NCBI GenBank assembly: GCA_027037705.1
Contig: JALVYZ010000292.1
Span: 1-8,994 of the forward strand
Reading direction: 5' to 3'
Length of the DNA stretch: 8,994 bases
Source of the DNA: a bacterium
GTDB lineage: Bacteria > DYJV01 > JALVYZ01
Both the position numbers and the translations under genes were made by a program. Each line of letters starts with the position of its first letter. The first letter of the stretch is position 1. Below are positions 1 through 8,994 of this stretch, one piece after another. The notes under the pieces were generated by a model, which saw nothing but the letters and a program-made list of their open reading frames with translations, made no database searches and had not been told where the DNA came from.

Positions 1-117
1 GGTTATTCTACTGCCTGGAAAGGTTTTTTAGCTAAAATGAATTCCTCCTCAAAGTCAACAGAGGTAGAAAGTGTTATATTTGTCCCAGTTGCTCCTGCTG
101 GGTATGGTAATGAATAA
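1..117 (+). CDS. 3' end of an unidentified gene (possible PilX-type minor pilin by position)
   Basis: Frame 1 is open from the first base to a TAA stop at 115-117 and gives 38 residues ending in VAPAGYGNE. The 5' part lies outside the window, so no domain or signal sequence can be seen. The stop lies 12 bases before the pilY1 start and only one base pair separates it from the strong Shine-Dalgarno site there, which suggests the same operon. In many bacteria pilX directly precedes pilY1, and the other three minor pilins are present downstream, so PilX is a reasonable guess from context. The visible tail has no motif that I recognise from PilX, so the identity is open. A different pilus protein or an unrelated protein is equally compatible with what is visible. 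Confidence 0.55.
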   Translation, partial: GYSTAWKGFLAKMNSSSKSTEVESVIFVPVAPAGYGNE

Positions 118-129: not shown

Positions 130-3100
130 ATGGCAAAAAAAATTTATTATTTATTTTTAATTTTATTCCTTTCTTTTAATCTTTATGCAGATCAACATAC
201 AATAAAGATAAAAATTGACAATCCCAATAGTGATAGTGACTATGAATGTTATCATGACAGTAGCGATAATAAATGGTGCCAGGTATATATAGAAATTCCT
301 GCAAAATTATATATGGATAAAGGATGGTTGAGAAGAGACTTAAAAAATTTGAGATTTAATAATGGTAGTAATGACCTCACATATTGGGTTATTCAAAAAG
401 CAGATAATAATTATCATATAAATAAGTTAGGTTTGTGGTTACTTATTCCAGATTTACAAACAGGTGTGACTTATATTGATATGATTATTGATGATAATAA
501 TTCAACTTCATATTGTAATCCAAGAGCAACTACTGATTTATCTGATGATAGAAGTAGTTATCTCTGTGCTGCTTCAGTATTTCCATTTTACAGTTATAAT
601 GTTGATGATTGGAAGCTAACAAAATATCCATCAAATCATAACTGGTATGATCCAGATACCATATTTATTAATAATACCTTATACGATCCAGATACTATAT
701 GGCCTGGAAAAAGAAGGGATGAAGCTAAAACAGGAAATGAATTTACACTTCATATTGATAATATGAAATACTATGCACCTTCAGGAAGTTATTACTCAGA
801 AGCCAAAATTTATTTTTTATCTCAAGCTCCTGCAAATAGTCCTGAAGAATTGGAAAATAGTGATGGCTATAGATTATATATAGAAAAAGCTTATGATTTT
901 AATAACGTATCAGATAATCTTCATTATACAAGAGTCCATTTTAAAATAAAATTGCAGTTAAAAGAAGGAATAATGTGGTTAACTAAAGCTGAGACTGATT
1001 GGTACCCATATAATAATACACGACATGTTTTTGATATAAAAGTTTCAAGTGATAAAATAGCTTTGTATATAAATGGTGAACATAGATATTTTTCTTCTGT
1101 TGCAGGAAGTGTTGATAATAATGGAGATTTTATAAGAGAAGATTTTTTTAATTCTGGTTTTTTTGGGATTGATAGGATGGGATGGAGAATATGTTGTGGA
1201 ACAGATATAAATTACATAATGTTAAGAAACTATTATAAGGAAGAACCTGATGTTGAGGTATATGGAAATACTGATGTAATAGTTGGAAAAGGTACTGCAG
1301 ATAGAGGTGAAGATCTAATAGAAATAGTTCCAGATATACAATTAGTTGGATTAGGTACAACAAGTGCAGAAATAAGCGGAAATACATTAGATAAATATGT
1401 GTTTGCTAAGTTAAATATAGCAAGAGAAAATCAAATAATTAATGATTTCAAATTAAAAATTAAAAATAGAGGAGACAGTACTGCTACTTTTAATATAATT
1501 CAACATAAAATTGCAGATAATCCATCTGGTTGGGTTGTTTATTGGTGTGATGAATCAGGAAATAATTGTTCTATTTCTCATCCTGATTCTATCTCAATAG
1601 AAAGTGGAGATTACAAAGAATATACATTAAAAGTTATTCCTTCTCCATCTGTTCTTTTTAATGGTGGTTCAATAAAGGTAAAAGTTAGTGTTGTATGTAA
1701 TGAAGATGGGAGTTTTGATAATGCTGAATTTAGAGTAAATGTTTTAACTAAATTGGATTGTTACTGGAAGTATAAATTACCTATAAATATAAACTGGAGT
1801 CCAGTTCATGGATATGATACTTTATACGATTATCAGGTTTTAGTTAATATTAGAAATATGACTGAATTACAATATGCTAATGAAGATGGTAGTGATATAA
1901 TAGTTACAGATAGTTCAGGAAATATTTTACCATTCTGGATTAAAAATTTTGATTACAATGGGAGAAATTTAAGTTTATGGGTTAAAACTCAATCTATTTC
2001 AGGTTCAGATAACAATATTATTTATGTTTGGTGGGGAAATAAGGAATTTAAAACAACAAAATCTGATATATATAAAACCTTTGACCTATTTGAGGACTGG
2101 CATGAATATAATCTTGGACAAACAGTTGGCTGTCCTGATGGCACAGCTCAATGTTCATCTGCTTCAAATGATTTAAGTGGATGGAAGAATATTCCAACCC
2201 CAGATGATTATTATAATTGGTGGATAATTAAAGAGTTGCCATCTGGGAATAAAATTTTAAATACTGATATCTATAGAGATGGCAGTGCTATTGATGTTCA
2301 TAATGGACTTTGTGGTTACTCTGATGGATCTGGAAAATCTTGCGATAAAGGACCTTATCTATTTGGCGGTAGCAAAGCATGGGACCATTATGAAGTATAT
2401 TATAAAATGAATGCAGGACCTTATTGTCAGTATAGTGGATGTGGAAATCCATGGGGGAATCCACAGTACAATCCAGTTTATGTCCTTGATGCAGGAAATA
2501 TGTGGGGAATTGAATTTTTTGCTGATAAATTTATTTTTAGACCTTATTCTTCAGGTATTGATTATGTGTGGCAATATCAGACATATCCAAGAAATATTTT
2601 AGGAGAAAGATTCCCTGAAAGGAACCAATGGTATTGGGTAAAAGTAAGAGTTTATAAAGAAAAAGATACAGGTATGTCAGATATTGAGGTATGGATTGCA
2701 AAAGATGAACCACAGGATATTGATAATAACACATATTATTATGAAGTTGGTTATTTTAATGCTCCACCAGTTTTTGATATCCCATTTGGAAAAATAGGTT
2801 TAGGTGGTTGGGATAGTGGATTCTATTTTGATGATGTAAGAGTAAGAAAATATATTAATCCAGAACCTACTTGTTCTCATGATAATGCTGAAACTCTTTC
2901 CCCAAGGGAAAATATTTCTTTATCTCAACCTCAAATAACACCACCATTCTTTGAAGGAAGGTCTGCATATATTTTTACTCGTACAAAACCATTTAGCTGG
3001 TTAGGTGATTTAATAGCATTAGATGCAGATTGTTATATAGGGGATAATTGTACTTCTAATCAAGATAAAGATAAAGAAGGTACTTTAAGTATATTTGGAA

Positions 3101-5136
3101 AAATTAATGATAATGTTTCAAAGGGATTAGGTTATTTCTTATTGACATCTCTACCTAATGACTACAATAGAACAAATATTGAAGATAATAATTGGATTCA
3201 AAATGGTAGATTTATTTTAACCAGAATTGATAATAAAACTACGCATGATTTTAATGGCTTTGATAAATTTGATTTAACAAACTGTAGTTATTTAAAAGAT
3301 TTATTATTAACAACAGGTACTTGTACAGAAAGTGATAATTATACAGATGAAACTGAAAAATTGATTAAATTTGTAAGAGGATTTTACATCTCTGATTATT
3401 CTAAGTCAAATGGTAGAAATATGGATTCAGATCCTCTTTATGGGAATAATAATGGAACTGCTGAAGATAATGAACAATGGAAGTTGGGAGATATTTTGCA
3501 CTCTAATCCTTTAATTGTAGGTATACCTAATATGCTATATGGAGACACTTCTTATTCAAAATTTGTCACAGACCATAGAAGTAGAGAATTAGTATTTTAC
3601 TTTATGAGTAATGATGGAATGTTGCATGCTTTCAGAGTAGCAGAATTTGATAACTATACAGTTATAAATCTTCCAAGATATAAACCAGTGGATCCCATTG
3701 AATTATGGGCTTTTATTCCAGAGGTAAATTTGCCAAAATTAAAAAATACAACAGAAGCTGATCACCATTATATTGCAGATGGTTTATTAAGAGCAATTGA
3801 TGTTAAGGATGGAAATAGATGGAAAACTATACTTATGGGAATTTCTGGTAAAGAATCAGAATATATATTTGCAATAGATATTACAGATCCTGCAGACCCT
3901 GAATTCCTTTGGGAGTTAAATAAGTACAAGAATCCTGAATTGTTCAATAAATTAGGAACTGCTATTTCTGCTCCTGCTATGGGTAAATTGAATGTAAATG
4001 GAAATGAAAAGTGGGTGGCGATTTTTGGCAGTGGTTTTAGTAATAATTTTATACAAAACTATACTGAAAAGAAGGCTTATTTAACTATTATAAATATTTT
4101 AACTGGTGAAGTTATAAAACAGATTAAAATAAATGATAAAATTGGAAATGTTTTAACAGATATATCTCCATTAAGAGATAAAAATGGTAATTTATTAAAA
4201 ATATTTTTTGGTGATTACTATGGAGCTTTATGGAAAGTCACTAATGAGAGATTAAGTGAGTTAATAGTTCAAAATAATCCTGAGTTAAATGAAAATGATA
4301 TGCTTTTTAAACCTTATGATTATGATAATCCTACTTCACCTTCAGAAGTTAAAAGACCAATTACCGCATATCCAATTGTTGCAAAAGGTGAAGGTGAAAA
4401 TGACTGGTGGATATATTTTGGGACAGGAGATTATGATGAATATGATCCAAATTATCCATATCAGAGATTTTACGGGATAAAAGATTCTCAAACAACTTAT
4501 ACTGATGCAGAAAATTGTGATAATTCTACTCCAACTTGTGGTGATTTTGTAAATGTAACATCATCAAATCAAACTAACATAAATAAAGAGAGCTGGGTAA
4601 TAGAATTAGGTCATACAGATACAATGGATGTGATTTATTCTGATTATAAAGAATGTTATAATAATTGTGTAGATAGTGGTACAGATGCTGATATTTGCGA
4701 AAGTACCTGTAGAGAATCGAATAAATCAATTAAAGGTAGAAATGAGAGAGTTATTCAACCAGCAACTGTTTTTGGAAAAATGGTATTTTTTACAACTTAT
4801 GAACCAGAAAATAATCCATGTGGTGGTGGGTTAAGCAGATTTTATGCTGTAAATTATACCACAGGGACTGTGGAAAATGATTTATTCTTAATCGGTGGAG
4901 CAAATGATTCAAGTACCACAGATAGTAGTAGTTCATTTGCAACTTTAAGAAGCGTTCAACTATCTACAAAAGGAATTCCAAGTAAAGCTTTAATATACAC
5001 AGGACATGGTGGAAAAAGTAAAGTTGTTGCTTCTGGATTAATTAATAGTTCAACAGGAGTTTTTGAAAAAATTAATTTGAATCCAGGAGCTTTTTTAAAT
5101 AATATTGATATTCTCCTATGGAGAAGAATTAAGTGA
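130..5136 (+). CDS. pilY1: PilY1-type type IV pilus tip adhesin / assembly factor with DUF2341 and LamG-like N-terminal modules
   Basis: A secreted 1668-residue protein expected to sit at the pilus tip with the minor pilins, supporting assembly and surface contact. Residues 1-20 look like a signal peptide with cleavage after LYA. Visible domains in order: a divergent DUF2341-like segment (about 51-128); a concanavalin/LamG-like segment (about 203-373); an Ig-like beta-sandwich (about 398-538); a clear DUF2341 (about 546-645) containing LPFWIK, LSLWVK and YVWWGN; a second LamG-like segment (about 657-913); and the PilY1 C-terminal beta-propeller region. The PilY1 hallmarks are WLGDL at 957-961, LGDILHSNP at 1119-1127, SNDGMLHAF at 1160-1168, FIPE before 1199, GDYYGALWK at 1361-1369 and YFGTGDY near 1430. 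I see no von Willebrand A (MIDAS) motif, unlike Pseudomonas PilY1. The propeller carries a twin CX3C cluster (C1509, C1513, C1523, C1527). The stop overlaps the next start by 4 bases. The PilY1 family call is secure; the N-terminal domain boundaries are by eye. Confidence 0.93.
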   Translation: MAKKIYYLFLILFLSFNLYADQHTIKIKIDNPNSDSDYECYHDSSDNKWCQVYIEIPAKLYMDKGWLRRDLKNLRFNNGSNDLTYWVIQKADNNYHINKLGLWLLIPDLQTGVTYIDMIIDDNNSTSYCNPRATTDLSDDRSSYLCAASVFPFYSYNVDDWKLTKYPSNHNWYDPDTIFINNTLYDPDTIWPGKRRDEAKTGNEFTLHIDNMKYYAPSGSYYSEAKIYFLSQAPANSPEELENSDGYRLYIEKAYDFNNVSDNLHYTRVHFKIKLQLKEGIMWLTKAETDWYPYNNTRHVFDIKVSSDKIALYINGEHRYFSSVAGSVDNNGDFIREDFFNSGFFGIDRMGWRICCGTDINYIMLRNYYKEEPDVEVYGNTDVIVGKGTADRGEDLIEIVPDIQLVGLGTTSAEISGNTLDKYVFAKLNIARENQIINDFKLKIKNRGDSTATFNIIQHKIADNPSGWVVYWCDESGNNCSISHPDSISIESGDYKEYTLKVIPSPSVLFNGGSIKVKVSVVCNEDGSFDNAEFRVNVLTKLDCYWKYKLPININWSPVHGYDTLYDYQVLVNIRNMTELQYANEDGSDIIVTDSSGNILPFWIKNFDYNGRNLSLWVKTQSISGSDNNIIYVWWGNKEFKTTKSDIYKTFDLFEDWHEYNLGQTVGCPDGTAQCSSASNDLSGWKNIPTPDDYYNWWIIKELPSGNKILNTDIYRDGSAIDVHNGLCGYSDGSGKSCDKGPYLFGGSKAWDHYEVYYKMNAGPYCQYSGCGNPWGNPQYNPVYVLDAGNMWGIEFFADKFIFRPYSSGIDYVWQYQTYPRNILGERFPERNQWYWVKVRVYKEKDTGMSDIEVWIAKDEPQDIDNNTYYYEVGYFNAPPVFDIPFGKIGLGGWDSGFYFDDVRVRKYINPEPTCSHDNAETLSPRENISLSQPQITPPFFEGRSAYIFTRTKPFSWLGDLIALDADCYIGDNCTSNQDKDKEGTLSIFGKINDNVSKGLGYFLLTSLPNDYNRTNIEDNNWIQNGRFILTRIDNKTTHDFNGFDKFDLTNCSYLKDLLLTTGTCTESDNYTDETEKLIKFVRGFYISDYSKSNGRNMDSDPLYGNNNGTAEDNEQWKLGDILHSNPLIVGIPNMLYGDTSYSKFVTDHRSRELVFYFMSNDGMLHAFRVAEFDNYTVINLPRYKPVDPIELWAFIPEVNLPKLKNTTEADHHYIADGLLRAIDVKDGNRWKTILMGISGKESEYIFAIDITDPADPEFLWELNKYKNPELFNKLGTAISAPAMGKLNVNGNEKWVAIFGSGFSNNFIQNYTEKKAYLTIINILTGEVIKQIKINDKIGNVLTDISPLRDKNGNLLKIFFGDYYGALWKVTNERLSELIVQNNPELNENDMLFKPYDYDNPTSPSEVKRPITAYPIVAKGEGENDWWIYFGTGDYDEYDPNYPYQRFYGIKDSQTTYTDAENCDNSTPTCGDFVNVTSSNQTNINKESWVIELGHTDTMDVIYSDYKECYNNCVDSGTDADICESTCRESNKSIKGRNERVIQPATVFGKMVFFTTYEPENNPCGGGLSRFYAVNYTTGTVENDLFLIGGANDSSTTDSSSSFATLRSVQLSTKGIPSKALIYTGHGGKSKVVASGLINSSTGVFEKINLNPGAFLNNIDILLWRRIK
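5120..5126 (+). promoter_or_regulatory. Ribosome binding site for the GTG-started fimT gene
   Basis: GGAGAAG inside the end of pilY1 lies 6 bases before the GTG at 5133. It supports the GTG start, which places the prepilin cleavage motif at residues 4-5, exactly where a short prepilin leader should end. The GTG overlaps the pilY1 TGA stop, so translation is probably coupled. Confidence 0.7.
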
Positions 5137-5663
5137 ATAAAGGATTTACTTTATTAGAGTTGTTTGTTATTGTATTAACATTTTCTACTCTTTTGTCAAT
5201 TTCTATGATTTCATTTAATTATTGGGAAGCAAAGAATAACACAAAAAATTTTGTGTTTGAATTGGCTTCTGAAATTAATTATGCAAGAGATTTATCGCGT
5301 AAAGAGGGAAAAAGAATAATTTTTGCATTAGTTAATCCTGGTGCAGGTAATCAAAACTGGACAGGAAATAGCAATATAGATCCAGTTTGCTATTTTATAT
5401 TTGAAGATGATAATAAAAATGGAACTTACGATAATGGGGAAAAAATTATTTCTTACAATAAATGCAAAAGTGTAAAAGTGACAGCGAATACTTTAATGAG
5501 AAGTTATGGGTCTAATGGTAAATGTATGATTTTATTTCCAATTGGTCTTCCTTTAATTGGAGATTCTGATAAGACTTTAACATTTCAAGCTAAAACTAAC
5601 ACTCATATTAGTTATTCTATTAAAATACATTCTGTAACTGGAATTGGAGAGATAATTCAATGA
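5133..5663 (+). CDS. fimT: FimT/GspH-type minor prepilin
   Basis: A 176-residue type IV minor pilin. The leader MNKG is followed by FTLLE, so prepilin peptidase should cut after G4 and N-methylate F5; E9 is the conserved Glu5 of the mature pilin. Residues 5-29 form the hydrophobic N-terminal helix that anchors the subunit in the inner membrane before assembly. The segment ELASEINYARDLSRKEGKRI (43-62) matches the FimT/GspH pattern of an Ala-Arg helix followed by a basic turn and strand. An acidic loop at D92-E103 (D92, N94, N96, G97, D100, E103) resembles a calcium-binding loop and recalls the D-N-NG-D-GE pattern of the family. In known systems FimT/FimU helps form the tip complex with PilV, PilW, PilX and PilY1. 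The start is GTG, and the gene overlaps both neighbours by 4 bases. FimU is an alternative name for the same role. Confidence 0.85.
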   Translation: MNKGFTLLELFVIVLTFSTLLSISMISFNYWEAKNNTKNFVFELASEINYARDLSRKEGKRIIFALVNPGAGNQNWTGNSNIDPVCYFIFEDDNKNGTYDNGEKIISYNKCKSVKVTANTLMRSYGSNGKCMILFPIGLPLIGDSDKTLTFQAKTNTHISYSIKIHSVTGIGEIIQ

Positions 5664-6154
5664 AAAATAAAAAAAAAGGTTTTACTTTAATTGAAGTTTT
5701 GGTTGCTATGTTTATTTTTACAATTGGTCTATTAGGACTGTTACCTTTATTAATTTCAAACATTAAATTAAATGAAGAAATAAAAATGAGAAATGGAGCA
5801 TTGAAACTTTTAGAAAGTTATACTTTAAGTTTAAGGGGTATAAATTATGATGATTTTAATGTTAATAACCTGAAAAATAATATGAATTATCAAGATACCT
5901 TTTCAAGTTATTTTACAAACTCTTTAACAAATAGCCCATGTCCTACAGGTTATGAAGATAGATTATATAAAGAAGATAATCTAACAAAAACAGTTGGGGG
6001 GACATCTGTTAATTATAGATATTTAATAAAATTATGCATTGATGAAGATTATCTTTATCCATATCTAAAAAAAGTTCATATTTGGATTTTTTGGAAGTTT
6101 AAAGAAAAATTTCATAAAATGGAGACAGAAATTTTTATTGGAAAGAAAACTTAG
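5660..6154 (+). CDS. pilV: PilV-type minor prepilin
   Basis: A 164-residue type IV minor pilin. The leader MKNKKKG precedes FTLIEVLVAM, giving cleavage after G7 and E12 as mature Glu5. The helix continues as FIFTIGLLGLLPLL; this GLLGL pattern is typical of PilV. The C-terminal strand segment LKKVHIWIFWKFKEKFHKME (137-156) fits the family's end, where a beta strand with a Val/Ile-Trp core closes the head domain. C94 and C126 could form a disulfide. The ATG overlaps the fimT stop as ATGA, with GGAGAG at 5646-5651 as ribosome binding site. A run of nine A bases (5669-5677) lies in the leader codons just before the cleavage site. The expected role is as part of the tip / priming complex with FimT, PilW and PilY1. 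PilV versus a GspI-type pseudopilin rests mainly on the PilY1 context. Confidence 0.83.
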   Translation: MKNKKKGFTLIEVLVAMFIFTIGLLGLLPLLISNIKLNEEIKMRNGALKLLESYTLSLRGINYDDFNVNNLKNNMNYQDTFSSYFTNSLTNSPCPTGYEDRLYKEDNLTKTVGGTSVNYRYLIKLCIDEDYLYPYLKKVHIWIFWKFKEKFHKMETEIFIGKKT

Positions 6155-6157
6155 AAA

Positions 6158-7150
6158 ATGAAAAAAGGATTTACAATAGTAGAGTTATTAGTCTCTATTT
6201 CTATTTTTTCTATTATACTTGTTGCAGCATCTGATTTTTATATCAATTCAATGCGTGAAAGTTCTAAAGAGAGATTAAAAGCTTTTAAAGAAAATGAAGT
6301 AAAAGAGGTTTTTAGATTAATTGAGGACGATATTAGACATGCAGATTTTGGATATGACAATAAAACAGATAATGATAATAATGATAATAAAAGTATAGCA
6401 ATCTATGCACTTGATAAATGTGGAAGTGGAGCTAATGAAACATTTTGTAAGCCTAACACAAGTCGTATCTTCATTGCAGATGGCTGGCAAATAATCAGAG
6501 ATTTCACTCAGGATAATTGTCCTGATGGAGATATTATTGATACAGATTATGAGACAATTTTAAATAAATTTAAAGCTGAAGTAGTCTCTTATACACCAGG
6601 AAATAAAAATATTACATTAAATACCTTAAATATTGATTCAAAGTGCAGGCAGGCAAATACATCAGCATTATGTGGCTCTAACACTTCTGATTGTAATGAT
6701 TTTAAAGATAATAAAGCATTAATTATTGCTCGTTGCTATGATGGAAGTAATAATTTTGGAGTTGAGGGAAGAAGAATAGGAGGAATTAGTAGCACTACCA
6801 TTTCATTTATTTCAAATGAAAACTTTCTTACTTATTACAATTGTAATCAAGCATATAGTGTAGCATTTCCTGCAATTGTCTGGTACATAAGAAAAAATAG
6901 TAATGGAGTTTTTTCTTTATATCGTAATGAGAATCAGGTTATTCAAGATGTTGATAATTTTGTTGTAAGAGTTGGATATGATACAAATGGAGATGGTATT
7001 ATTCAAAGTTCAGAATTATATGAAAATATTCCTCCAAATAGTGAATATTCAAAGTTAAAATTTTTTGAAATATCAATTGATTTTTATTACACATGGAAGA
7101 ATAAAAAATATTTGATGAATTATAAAACAAGTATTGAGGCATTTCATTAA
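6158..7150 (+). CDS. pilW: PilW-type minor prepilin with an EF-hand-like loop
   Basis: A 330-residue minor pilin with leader MKKG and helix FTIVELLVSISIFSIILVAA; prepilin peptidase should cut after G4, and E9 is mature Glu5. The segment FRLIEDDIRHADFGYD (52-67) matches the PilW pattern of a helix ending in Asp-Ile-Arg-x-Ala-x-Phe-Gly. The length is usual for PilW and much greater than for FimT or PilV. Near the C-terminus, D275-E286 forms a full EF-hand-type loop (D275, N277, D279, G280, I282, E286); PilW proteins often have an Asp-rich segment here, so a calcium role is plausible but inferred. Residues 67-79 are an Asp/Asn-rich linker. Several Cys residues (for example in KCGS and FCKP near 88-97) could pair outside the membrane. 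The start lies 3 bases after the pilV stop with only a weak upstream GGAAAG (6140-6145), suggesting dependence on translation of pilV. A GspJ-type pseudopilin is the alternative and less likely. Confidence 0.85.
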   Translation: MKKGFTIVELLVSISIFSIILVAASDFYINSMRESSKERLKAFKENEVKEVFRLIEDDIRHADFGYDNKTDNDNNDNKSIAIYALDKCGSGANETFCKPNTSRIFIADGWQIIRDFTQDNCPDGDIIDTDYETILNKFKAEVVSYTPGNKNITLNTLNIDSKCRQANTSALCGSNTSDCNDFKDNKALIIARCYDGSNNFGVEGRRIGGISSTTISFISNENFLTYYNCNQAYSVAFPAIVWYIRKNSNGVFSLYRNENQVIQDVDNFVVRVGYDTNGDGIIQSSELYENIPPNSEYSKLKFFEISIDFYYTWKNKKYLMNYKTSIEAFH

Positions 7151-7184: not shown

Positions 7185-8126
7185 ATGAGAGTATTAGTTA
7201 CAGGTGGAGCAGGTTTTATAGGAAGTCATTTATGTGATTACCTTTTGAAAAAAGGTCATGAAGTAATATGTCTTGATAATTTTTTTACTGGAAGAAAGGA
7301 AAATATAAAACATAATTTAGATAATTTTAAATTTGAAGTTATAAGACACGATATTGTTCAGCCAATTTTTCTTGAAGTTGACTGGATTTTTCATTTAGCA
7401 AGTCCTGCAAGTCCAATTCACTATCAATACAATCCTGTAAAAACCACAAAAACAAATGTTATGGGAACAATCCACATGCTTGGGCTTGCTAAAAGAGTTA
7501 AAGCACGAATTTTACTTGCTTCAACTTCAGAAGTTTATGGGGATCCCACAGTCCATCCTCAAAAAGAAGACTATTGGGGGAATGTAAATCCAATAGGACC
7601 AAGAAGTTGTTATGATGAAGGCAAGAGAGTTGCTGAAACATTGATGATGGATTATTATAGACAGAATAATGTTGATATTAGAATTGTTAGGATTTTTAAT
7701 ACTTATGGTCCGAGAATGTTAAAAAATGACGGAAGAGTAGTTAGTAATTTTATTGTGCAGGCTTTGACAAATGAAGATATTACTGTATTTGGTGATGGAA
7801 CACAGACAAGGTCCTTCTGTTATATAGATGACTTAGTTGAAGGATTATACAGAATGATGGAACAGGAAAAACATATTGGTCCAATAAATTTAGGCAATCC
7901 AGAAGAATACAAAATTATAGAGCTTGCAAAAAAGATAATTGAAATGACTAATAGTAAATCAAAAATAGTTTATAAATCATTACCTCCAGATGATCCGACT
8001 CAAAGACAACCAGATATAACTTTAGCAAAAAAAATTTTAAATTGGCAACCAACAATTAGTCTTGACAAAGGTTTAAAAAAGACAATTGAATACTTTAAAA
8101 AAATATTGGAGGTGAAAAATGTATAA
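7185..8126 (+). CDS. uxs: UDP-glucuronate decarboxylase (UDP-xylose synthase), short soluble form
   Basis: A 313-residue extended short-chain dehydrogenase/reductase expected to convert UDP-glucuronate to UDP-xylose and CO2 with tightly bound NAD, in the cytoplasm. The Rossmann motif is [10 protein letters not shown] (6-15; G7, G10, G13), with D31 after strand 2 for the NAD ribose. [12 protein letters not shown] (70-81) and [19 protein letters not shown] (135-153) are highly characteristic of UDP-xylose synthases. The catalytic set is present: S/T before E116 in TSEVYGDP, the Y143-x-x-x-K147 pair, and R274 in TQRQPDI near the C-terminus. There is no N-terminal membrane anchor, as in bacterial and cytosolic forms. 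The product would feed xylose into a surface polysaccharide, lipopolysaccharide or glycoprotein; which one cannot be seen here. The gene follows pilW by 34 bases and overlaps the next gene by 8 bases. A related dTDP-glucose dehydratase or UDP-glucose epimerase is unlikely given the signature segments. Confidence 0.93.
8108..8114 (+). promoter_or_regulatory. Strong ribosome binding site for the acyl-CoA ligase, inside uxs
   Basis: GGAGGTG within the last codons of uxs lies 4 bases before the ATG at 8119. It decides the start of the downstream ligase and explains the 8-base overlap of the two reading frames. The arrangement implies co-transcription and probably coupled translation. Confidence 0.75.
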
Positions 8127-8994
8127 AATCATTGAAAGGACACAATCAGCATATGATTATCAATTATTAATTAAAAGAATTATTGAAACACCATTAATAT
8201 ATTTTCCAGAACAGGAAATAGTATACAGAGATTTAAGAAGATATACTTATAAAGATTTTTATAAAAGATTAAAAAAAGCTGCAAACATGCTTGAAAAGTT
8301 AGGAGTTAAGCCAGGTTCTGTTGTTGGAGTAATGGATTGGGATTCATATAGATATCTTGAATTATTTTTTACAATTCCAATGATTGGTTCAATTATTCAT
8401 ACTATAAATATAAGATTAAGTCCTGAACAGATTTTATTTACCATAAATCATGCAGAAGATGAAATTTTATTTGTTAATAGGGATTTTCAACCTTTAATTG
8501 AGAAAATTAAAGATAAATTTACAACAGTAAAAGAAATAATTTATATGAGTGATGACTTACAACAAAGTGATTATGATAATCTTATTGATGAAGCTAATGA
8601 AGATTATGAATTTCCAGATTTTGATGAAAATACTCAAGCAACATTATTTTACACAACTGGCACAACAGGAAATCCAAAAGGAGTTTATTTTAGCCATAGA
8701 CAATTAATGCTTCATACTTTATCTGTTACAATTGCTGCAAGTGGATATGAAACAAATGGAAGATTTCGTTCAAATGATGTATATATGCCAATAACTCCTA
8801 TGTTTCATGTTCATGCATGGGGAATCCCATTTGTAGCTACTGTACTTGGAGTTAAACAAGTTTATCCAGGAAGGTATGACCCAGAATTACTTCTAACTTT
8901 AATTGAAAAAGAAAAAGTGACATTTTCCCATTGTGTCCCTACAATATTACATATGCTTCTCACACATCCTAAAGCAAAAGAAGTAGACCTATCA
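8119..8994 (+). CDS. AMP-forming fatty acyl-CoA ligase (AlkK-like), N-terminal part, cut by window end
   Basis: The frame is open from ATG 8119 to the end of the window, giving 292 residues of an adenylate-forming (ANL) enzyme; the family usually has about 530-560 residues, so roughly half is present. The protein would activate a fatty acid with ATP to the acyl-AMP and then form the CoA thioester. The ATP phosphate-binding motif is [11 protein letters not shown] (178-188). PMFHVHAWG (227-235) is the second core motif; the form with His-x-x-x-Trp-Gly resembles medium-chain ligases of the AlkK type more than acetyl-CoA synthetase. [10 protein letters not shown] (255-264) and the following CVPTIL segment fit the same group. 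The aspartate and lysine motifs of the C-terminal half lie outside the window. There is no signal peptide, so it should be cytoplasmic or peripheral to the membrane. The start overlaps uxs by 8 bases. Substrate chain length is not determinable. Confidence 0.9.

Follow-up and report, generated by a model that had tools for sequence, protein, structure and literature searches.

PilY1 is the tip adhesin of the type IV pilus and a candidate mechanosensor, and the model by which it senses leans largely on its von Willebrand A (vWA) domain. Its N-terminal domain forms the outermost pilus tip, and in a 2026 survey vWA and DUF4114 are the only published PilY1 N-terminal domains identified (PMC13190605). 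The DUF4114 head of Myxococcus xanthus PilY1.1 has been proposed to bind EPS (PMC9109919), and the Streptococcus sanguinis minor pilin PilC, which carries Ig-like and concanavalin A (ConA)-like modules, is a proven glycan binder (PMC9934059). DUF2341 proteins of archaeal type IV pilus loci (arCOG03508, including MMJJ_08210 of M. maripaludis) are proposed as tip adhesins and described without a PilY1 propeller. MMJJ_08210, from the epd pilus locus, is reported as a repeated match in a transformation screen (PMC10133366), and a 2016 survey both places DUF2341 proteins in archaeal pilus loci and reports the domain from P. aeruginosa PilY as well (PMC4858521).

The window analysed here is a full contig of 8,994 nucleotides from a bacterial genome of 2.05 Mb that is 92.8% complete. 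It encodes a PilY1-type protein of 1668 residues (130..5136, + strand) that belongs to PF05567 (E 1.4e-22; 80.7 bits against a curated cut-off of 28.1) and matches the P. aeruginosa PilY1 structure 3hx6 over residues 1118-1605 (phmmer E 2.2e-21). A signal peptide can be read at residues 1-20 (130..189, + strand; MAKKIYYLFLILFLSFNLYA), the beta-propeller spans residues 1119-1467 (3484..4530, + strand; PF05567), and a conserved segment that runs up to the propeller and includes its start, residues 1025-1168 (3202..3633, + strand), scores 72 bits with an HMM built on other PilY1s. In its C-terminal propeller and the placement of its gene among minor pilins the protein resembles the PilY1 (ComC) proteins of P. 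aeruginosa, Legionella and Acinetobacter, whereas their N-terminal vWA domain has as its counterpart here DUF2341+ConA-like modules with no MIDAS. With M. xanthus PilY1.1 and PilY1.2 it shares a non-vWA, putatively sugar-binding, beta-rich head, but theirs is of a different family, DUF4114, for which the window protein has no match. S. sanguinis PilC is a parallel in how it works, bringing Ig-like and ConA-like lectin-fold modules, of the kinds proposed here, to a type IV pilus tip, but on a pilin, with no PilY1, a single lectin module and no DUF2341. The likeness to the archaeal proteins lies in DUF2341 being encoded with type IV pilins, and tandem DUF2341+LamG surface proteins of bacteria, archaea and viral contigs contain this module too, commonly in two or three copies per protein, though unlike the window protein they are not fused to a PilY1 propeller. 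The sequence comparisons support a PilY1 in which the vWA head of other family members appears to be replaced in position by two DUF2341+LamG/ConA-like modules, with both vWA and MIDAS absent.

The second of these modules, copy 2 (residues 544-917; 1759..2880, + strand), can be assigned from its sequence with certainty as a DUF2341+ConA-like module of canonical form, since the whole of it aligns to the module profile with an hhalign probability of 99% and E 2e-18. It opens with upstream strands (WKYKLPININ...YQVLVNI), continues into DUF2341 and closes with a domain ending FDDVRVRKYINPEP. The DUF2341 domain (PF10102; residues 586-662; 1885..2115, + strand) is found at E 2e-14 and 54.3 bits, above the gathering score of 23.4. 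The initial annotation had placed it at residues 546-645; the domain is there, but the range was too wide at its start, where 546 takes in the WKYKLPININ strands of the extended module. The motifs that it quoted are all present in the protein, with LPFWIK, LSLWVK and YVWWGN at 600-637. In the AlphaFold2 model of copy 2, pLDDT is 86-93 over residues 551-640 of the DUF2341 region and lower in the ConA-like lectin-fold part (residues 652-908; 2083..2853, + strand), whose closest chains, at VIA-align Z up to 11.4, are legume lectins and the ConA domains of glycosidases and whose best Foldseek match is CBM66 (E 5e-4). A tblastn search of annotated phages with copy 2 gave no match.

Copy 1 (residues 21-378; 190..1263, + strand) is in our reading, which rests on profile comparison, a genuine module of the same kind that has diverged greatly. 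Thirty-two DUF2341+ConA modules, of unrelated genomes and of viral contigs, were combined into a profile that holds no window sequence. Against it copy 1 scores 12.1 bits in HMMER; its hhalign local score of 40.0 compares with maxima of 22.0 among 140-144 shuffles and 19.6 among the N termini of 81 other PilY1s, and its global score of 33.9 with maxima of 12.0 and 10.1 respectively. Smaller module profiles agree with this outcome, and longer profiles score better than one of DUF2341 alone. The alignment is co-linear over residues 21-382, begins just past the signal peptide and stops at NYIMLRNYYKEEPDVEV, which shares its column with the RKYxxPEP strand of the module. Along it the pairs QVYIEIP/QVLVNIR, DLKNLRF/DGSDIIV, LTYWV/LPFWI, LGLW/LSLW and NYIMLRNYYKEEP/FDDVRVRKYINPEP of copies 1 and 2 share columns, so that both the weaker first module that had been proposed and the correspondence of the two module ends were borne out. 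The direct self-alignment that should have accompanied them was not, as copy 1 meets copy 2 at chance level in BLASTP (E 0.06) and Smith-Waterman (187 of 500 shuffles as good). Searching the halves against Pfam likewise gave a PF10102 match for copy 2 but none at E 10 for residues 21-398 alone, Pfam having no call of its own for copy 1, and LamG matched neither module. A DUF2341-only HMM built without the protein's own sequence reaches residues 70-140 with 5.2 bits, a score equalled in 9 of 5000 shuffles. The DUF2341-like part of copy 1 (residues 22-140; 193..549, + strand) is delimited by the hhalign local alignment and modelled at pLDDT of about 58-82 over residues 21-120, beyond which values are mostly 30-60; the putative ConA-like (LamG/GH16-type) beta sandwich that follows (residues 135-370; 532..1239, + strand) has its best matches among GH16 laminarinases (Z up to 12.0; Foldseek E 2e-6). 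Structure prediction thus returns a ConA-like sandwich for both halves (Z 12.0 and 11.4), but on mostly low-pLDDT (30-60) models whose alignments contained module relatives from the window and viral contigs only, and which therefore support the sequence match without being independent proof of it. A GH16-type enzyme was considered and set aside: copy 2 lacks the catalytic motif ExDxxE, and where copy 1 matches it, once (EPDVE, 372), the site is on the terminal strand and not in an active site. Across the whole genome the module profile finds two places, copies 1 and 2, and as this profile includes both, the search tells us no more than that a third copy is missing.

The initial annotation had read this arrangement as an ancient duplication split by an Ig-like domain at residues 398-538. 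Two modules and an all-beta spacer are indeed what is found, but the duplication itself did not gain from the comparison: copy 1 shares 19.3% identity with copy 2 and 14-20.5% with modules from unrelated viral contigs, and being no nearer to its neighbour than to these, it is explained equally well by internal duplication and by separate recruitment. The all-beta stretch spans residues 398-540 (1321..1749, + strand), modelled with low confidence as nine beta strands and weakly matching FixG_C and DUF4859; given a best Ig-like match at Pfam E 0.05 (FixG_C) and low pLDDT, its identity as an Ig-like domain is plausible only. An RGD tripeptide lies within it (LKIKNRGDSTATF; residues 447-449, window 1468-1476). 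P. aeruginosa PilY1 binds integrin via RGD; in this linker the tripeptide may merely be the NxGDS turn that is common in such Ig-like domains.

The fusion itself appears to be rare in the genomes and loci compared, which are samples and no census. PilY1 occurs in 57 and DUF2341 in 29 of 386 sampled genomes, with no other open reading frame carrying both; among 95 genomes of another PilY1-bearing phylum DUF2341 occurs in three, in none sharing a reading frame with PilY1; and DUF2341 is absent from all 81 PilY1 reading frames of the best 80 GTDB loci among the matches listed, Pseudomonas PilY1s included. Three candidate genomes were examined and rejected, two (G071 and G381) having the families on different contigs and the third (G426) having DUF2341 with a PQQ-like propeller and no PilY1. 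In G426 the reading frame in question (L207) combines LamG, DUF2341+ConA and a PQQ-like propeller, and so resembles the window protein in its mix of parts while lacking PilY1. As a protein query the N-terminal half found no convincing homologue in the 386 genomes (best E 0.007, confined to a short stretch) and no match in viral contigs, where module instances were located by a degenerate WVKV...YYGN pattern, the module having too little conservation along any stretch for alignment-based scans. DUF2341 proteins elsewhere, from many genomes and from viral contigs, have the same layout, ending DxhxhRKYxxPEP, and in them the module is stand-alone and often tandem (three in L162; two each in L165, L172, L174, L176, L183 and L185), and this recurrence marks it as a common surface-protein unit. 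Additions of a sugar-binding type to PilY1 are not unique to this protein, as the heads of 38 scanned PilY1s without a strict MIDAS motif include PA14 (4), GLEYA (2), FG-GAP (1) and GEVED (1). A PilY1 of Aminicenantes (L150:1266-5090) shows no vWA signal and represents another alternative head type; it is probably the member of the scanned set that carries FG-GAP repeats.

Three minor prepilin genes lie immediately 3' of pilY1, their starts overlapping or 3 bases apart in an operon-like fashion. The GspH/FimU-like gene overlaps the pilY1 stop (5133..5663, + strand; PF12019 E 0.0016 and TIGR01708 E 1e-5, both under cut-off) and is followed by a PilV-like gene (5660..6154, + strand; N_methyl E 1.5e-10; TIGR02523 PilV E 3e-10, under cut-off) and a PilW/GspJ-like gene (6158..7150, + strand; N_methyl E 1e-6; weak GspJ-type matches). 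The source genome also has five strong matches to PilB/PilT-family ATPases, so that a type IV filament system is likely. At the contig start, window 1-117 holds the last 38 codons of an upstream reading frame (...VPVAPAGYGNE), which could be the missing fourth minor pilin, in the PilX position. Window 7185-8994 carries a gene of the sugar-nucleotide epimerase/decarboxylase type (dTDP/UDP-sugar family) and then the beginning of one for an AMP-binding acyl-CoA ligase, both probably unrelated to the pilus. In G001, a member of the same order and the only other genome of the same phylum in the comparison set, a 148-residue reading frame with a signal-like start, PilY2-like by position and size, lies directly 5' of pilY1 (L076:11193-11639).

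The identity of the N-terminal half admits two alternatives. Pfam misses many PilY1 vWA domains, and a diverged vWA could have been hidden here; this is very improbable and largely refuted, because no MIDAS motif (DxSxS, vWA context) lies N-terminal to the propeller, the models are all-beta, and a vWA HMM built from 36 MIDAS-bearing PilY1 N termini gives -1.4 bits for the window PilY1 and at most 0.3 for its own regions, against 101 bits for L074, the PilY1 of G001, which near its start reads PNVLFILDNSGSM. The absence of vWA that had been asserted from the sequence is upheld. Searched in G001, the whole window PilY1 gives no match at E 0.001; the two proteins are too diverged to be treated as orthologues, and the comparison therefore speaks of a different head, with no demonstrated swap. 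Copy 1 might instead be an all-beta domain of other descent whose likeness to the module comes from composition and chance, as its failure to match Pfam or, significantly, copy 2, and the shuffles that equal the short DUF2341 profile, would allow. We consider this unlikely, as with the full module profile no shuffle and no other PilY1 N terminus approaches its score, and the match keeps its order all the way from signal peptide to closing KY..EP strand.

What such a head would do is a separate matter, and the reading that we favour, with moderate confidence, is that of a PilY1 variant in which two DUF2341+ConA-like modules and an Ig-like spacer replace vWA to make a lectin-like tip head, its likeliest target being a polysaccharide or glycosylated surface. 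By homology the propeller would bind the minor-pilin cap and, with the adjacent minor pilins, take the part of known PilY1s in capping and priming the type IV pilus, while the N-terminal modules, at the outermost tip, would form a two-headed, lectin-like attachment unit, with the Ig-like domain between, that grips such a surface. The tip location we infer from PilY1 homology, and glycan binding is suggested by fold and analogy. Proteins are frequent ligands of ConA-like and LamG domains, which may also serve structure only, and the modules could accordingly be structural or protein-binding spacers, or force sensors, with adhesion left to the propeller or minor pilins and no glycan binding. The Ig-like linker and tandem layout look spacer-like and the GH16 catalytic motif is missing from its expected place in both copies, but among known structures both modules come closest to ConA-like domains that bind or cleave sugar, and S. 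sanguinis PilC, the nearest parallel at a pilus tip, has been proven to be a lectin; the spacer explanation is the less likely one. A role of the modules in DNA binding or uptake by a competence pilus, as suggested for M. maripaludis, finds encouragement in the epd-locus DUF2341 gene of that species, which is reported as a repeated find in a transformation screen (PMC10133366). That protein, however, belongs to an archaeal system described without PilY1, loss of the pilus alone explains the phenotype and DNA binding by DUF2341 is putative, so a role in DNA uptake seems improbable.

The favoured reading of a lectin-like double module has consequences for how PilY1 is viewed. A PilY1 that carries such a module and lacks vWA would mean that vWA is dispensable in some lineages, and suggests a pilus with another manner of gripping its target. 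It would also lengthen the short list of head types, which in the 2026 survey comprises vWA and DUF4114 (PMC13190605), and link bacterial PilY1 with the DUF2341 proteins of archaeal pilus loci. A broader proposal, offered tentatively and in our judgement rather more apt to fail than to stand, is that PilY1 is a general pilus-tip chassis on which unrelated adhesive modules are exchanged as heads, this lineage having swapped a force-sensing vWA for a tandem DUF2341-lectin head common to archaeal pilus and viral surface proteins. If that were true, one gripping module would serve both PilY1 in bacteria and the DUF2341 pilus-tip proteins of archaea.
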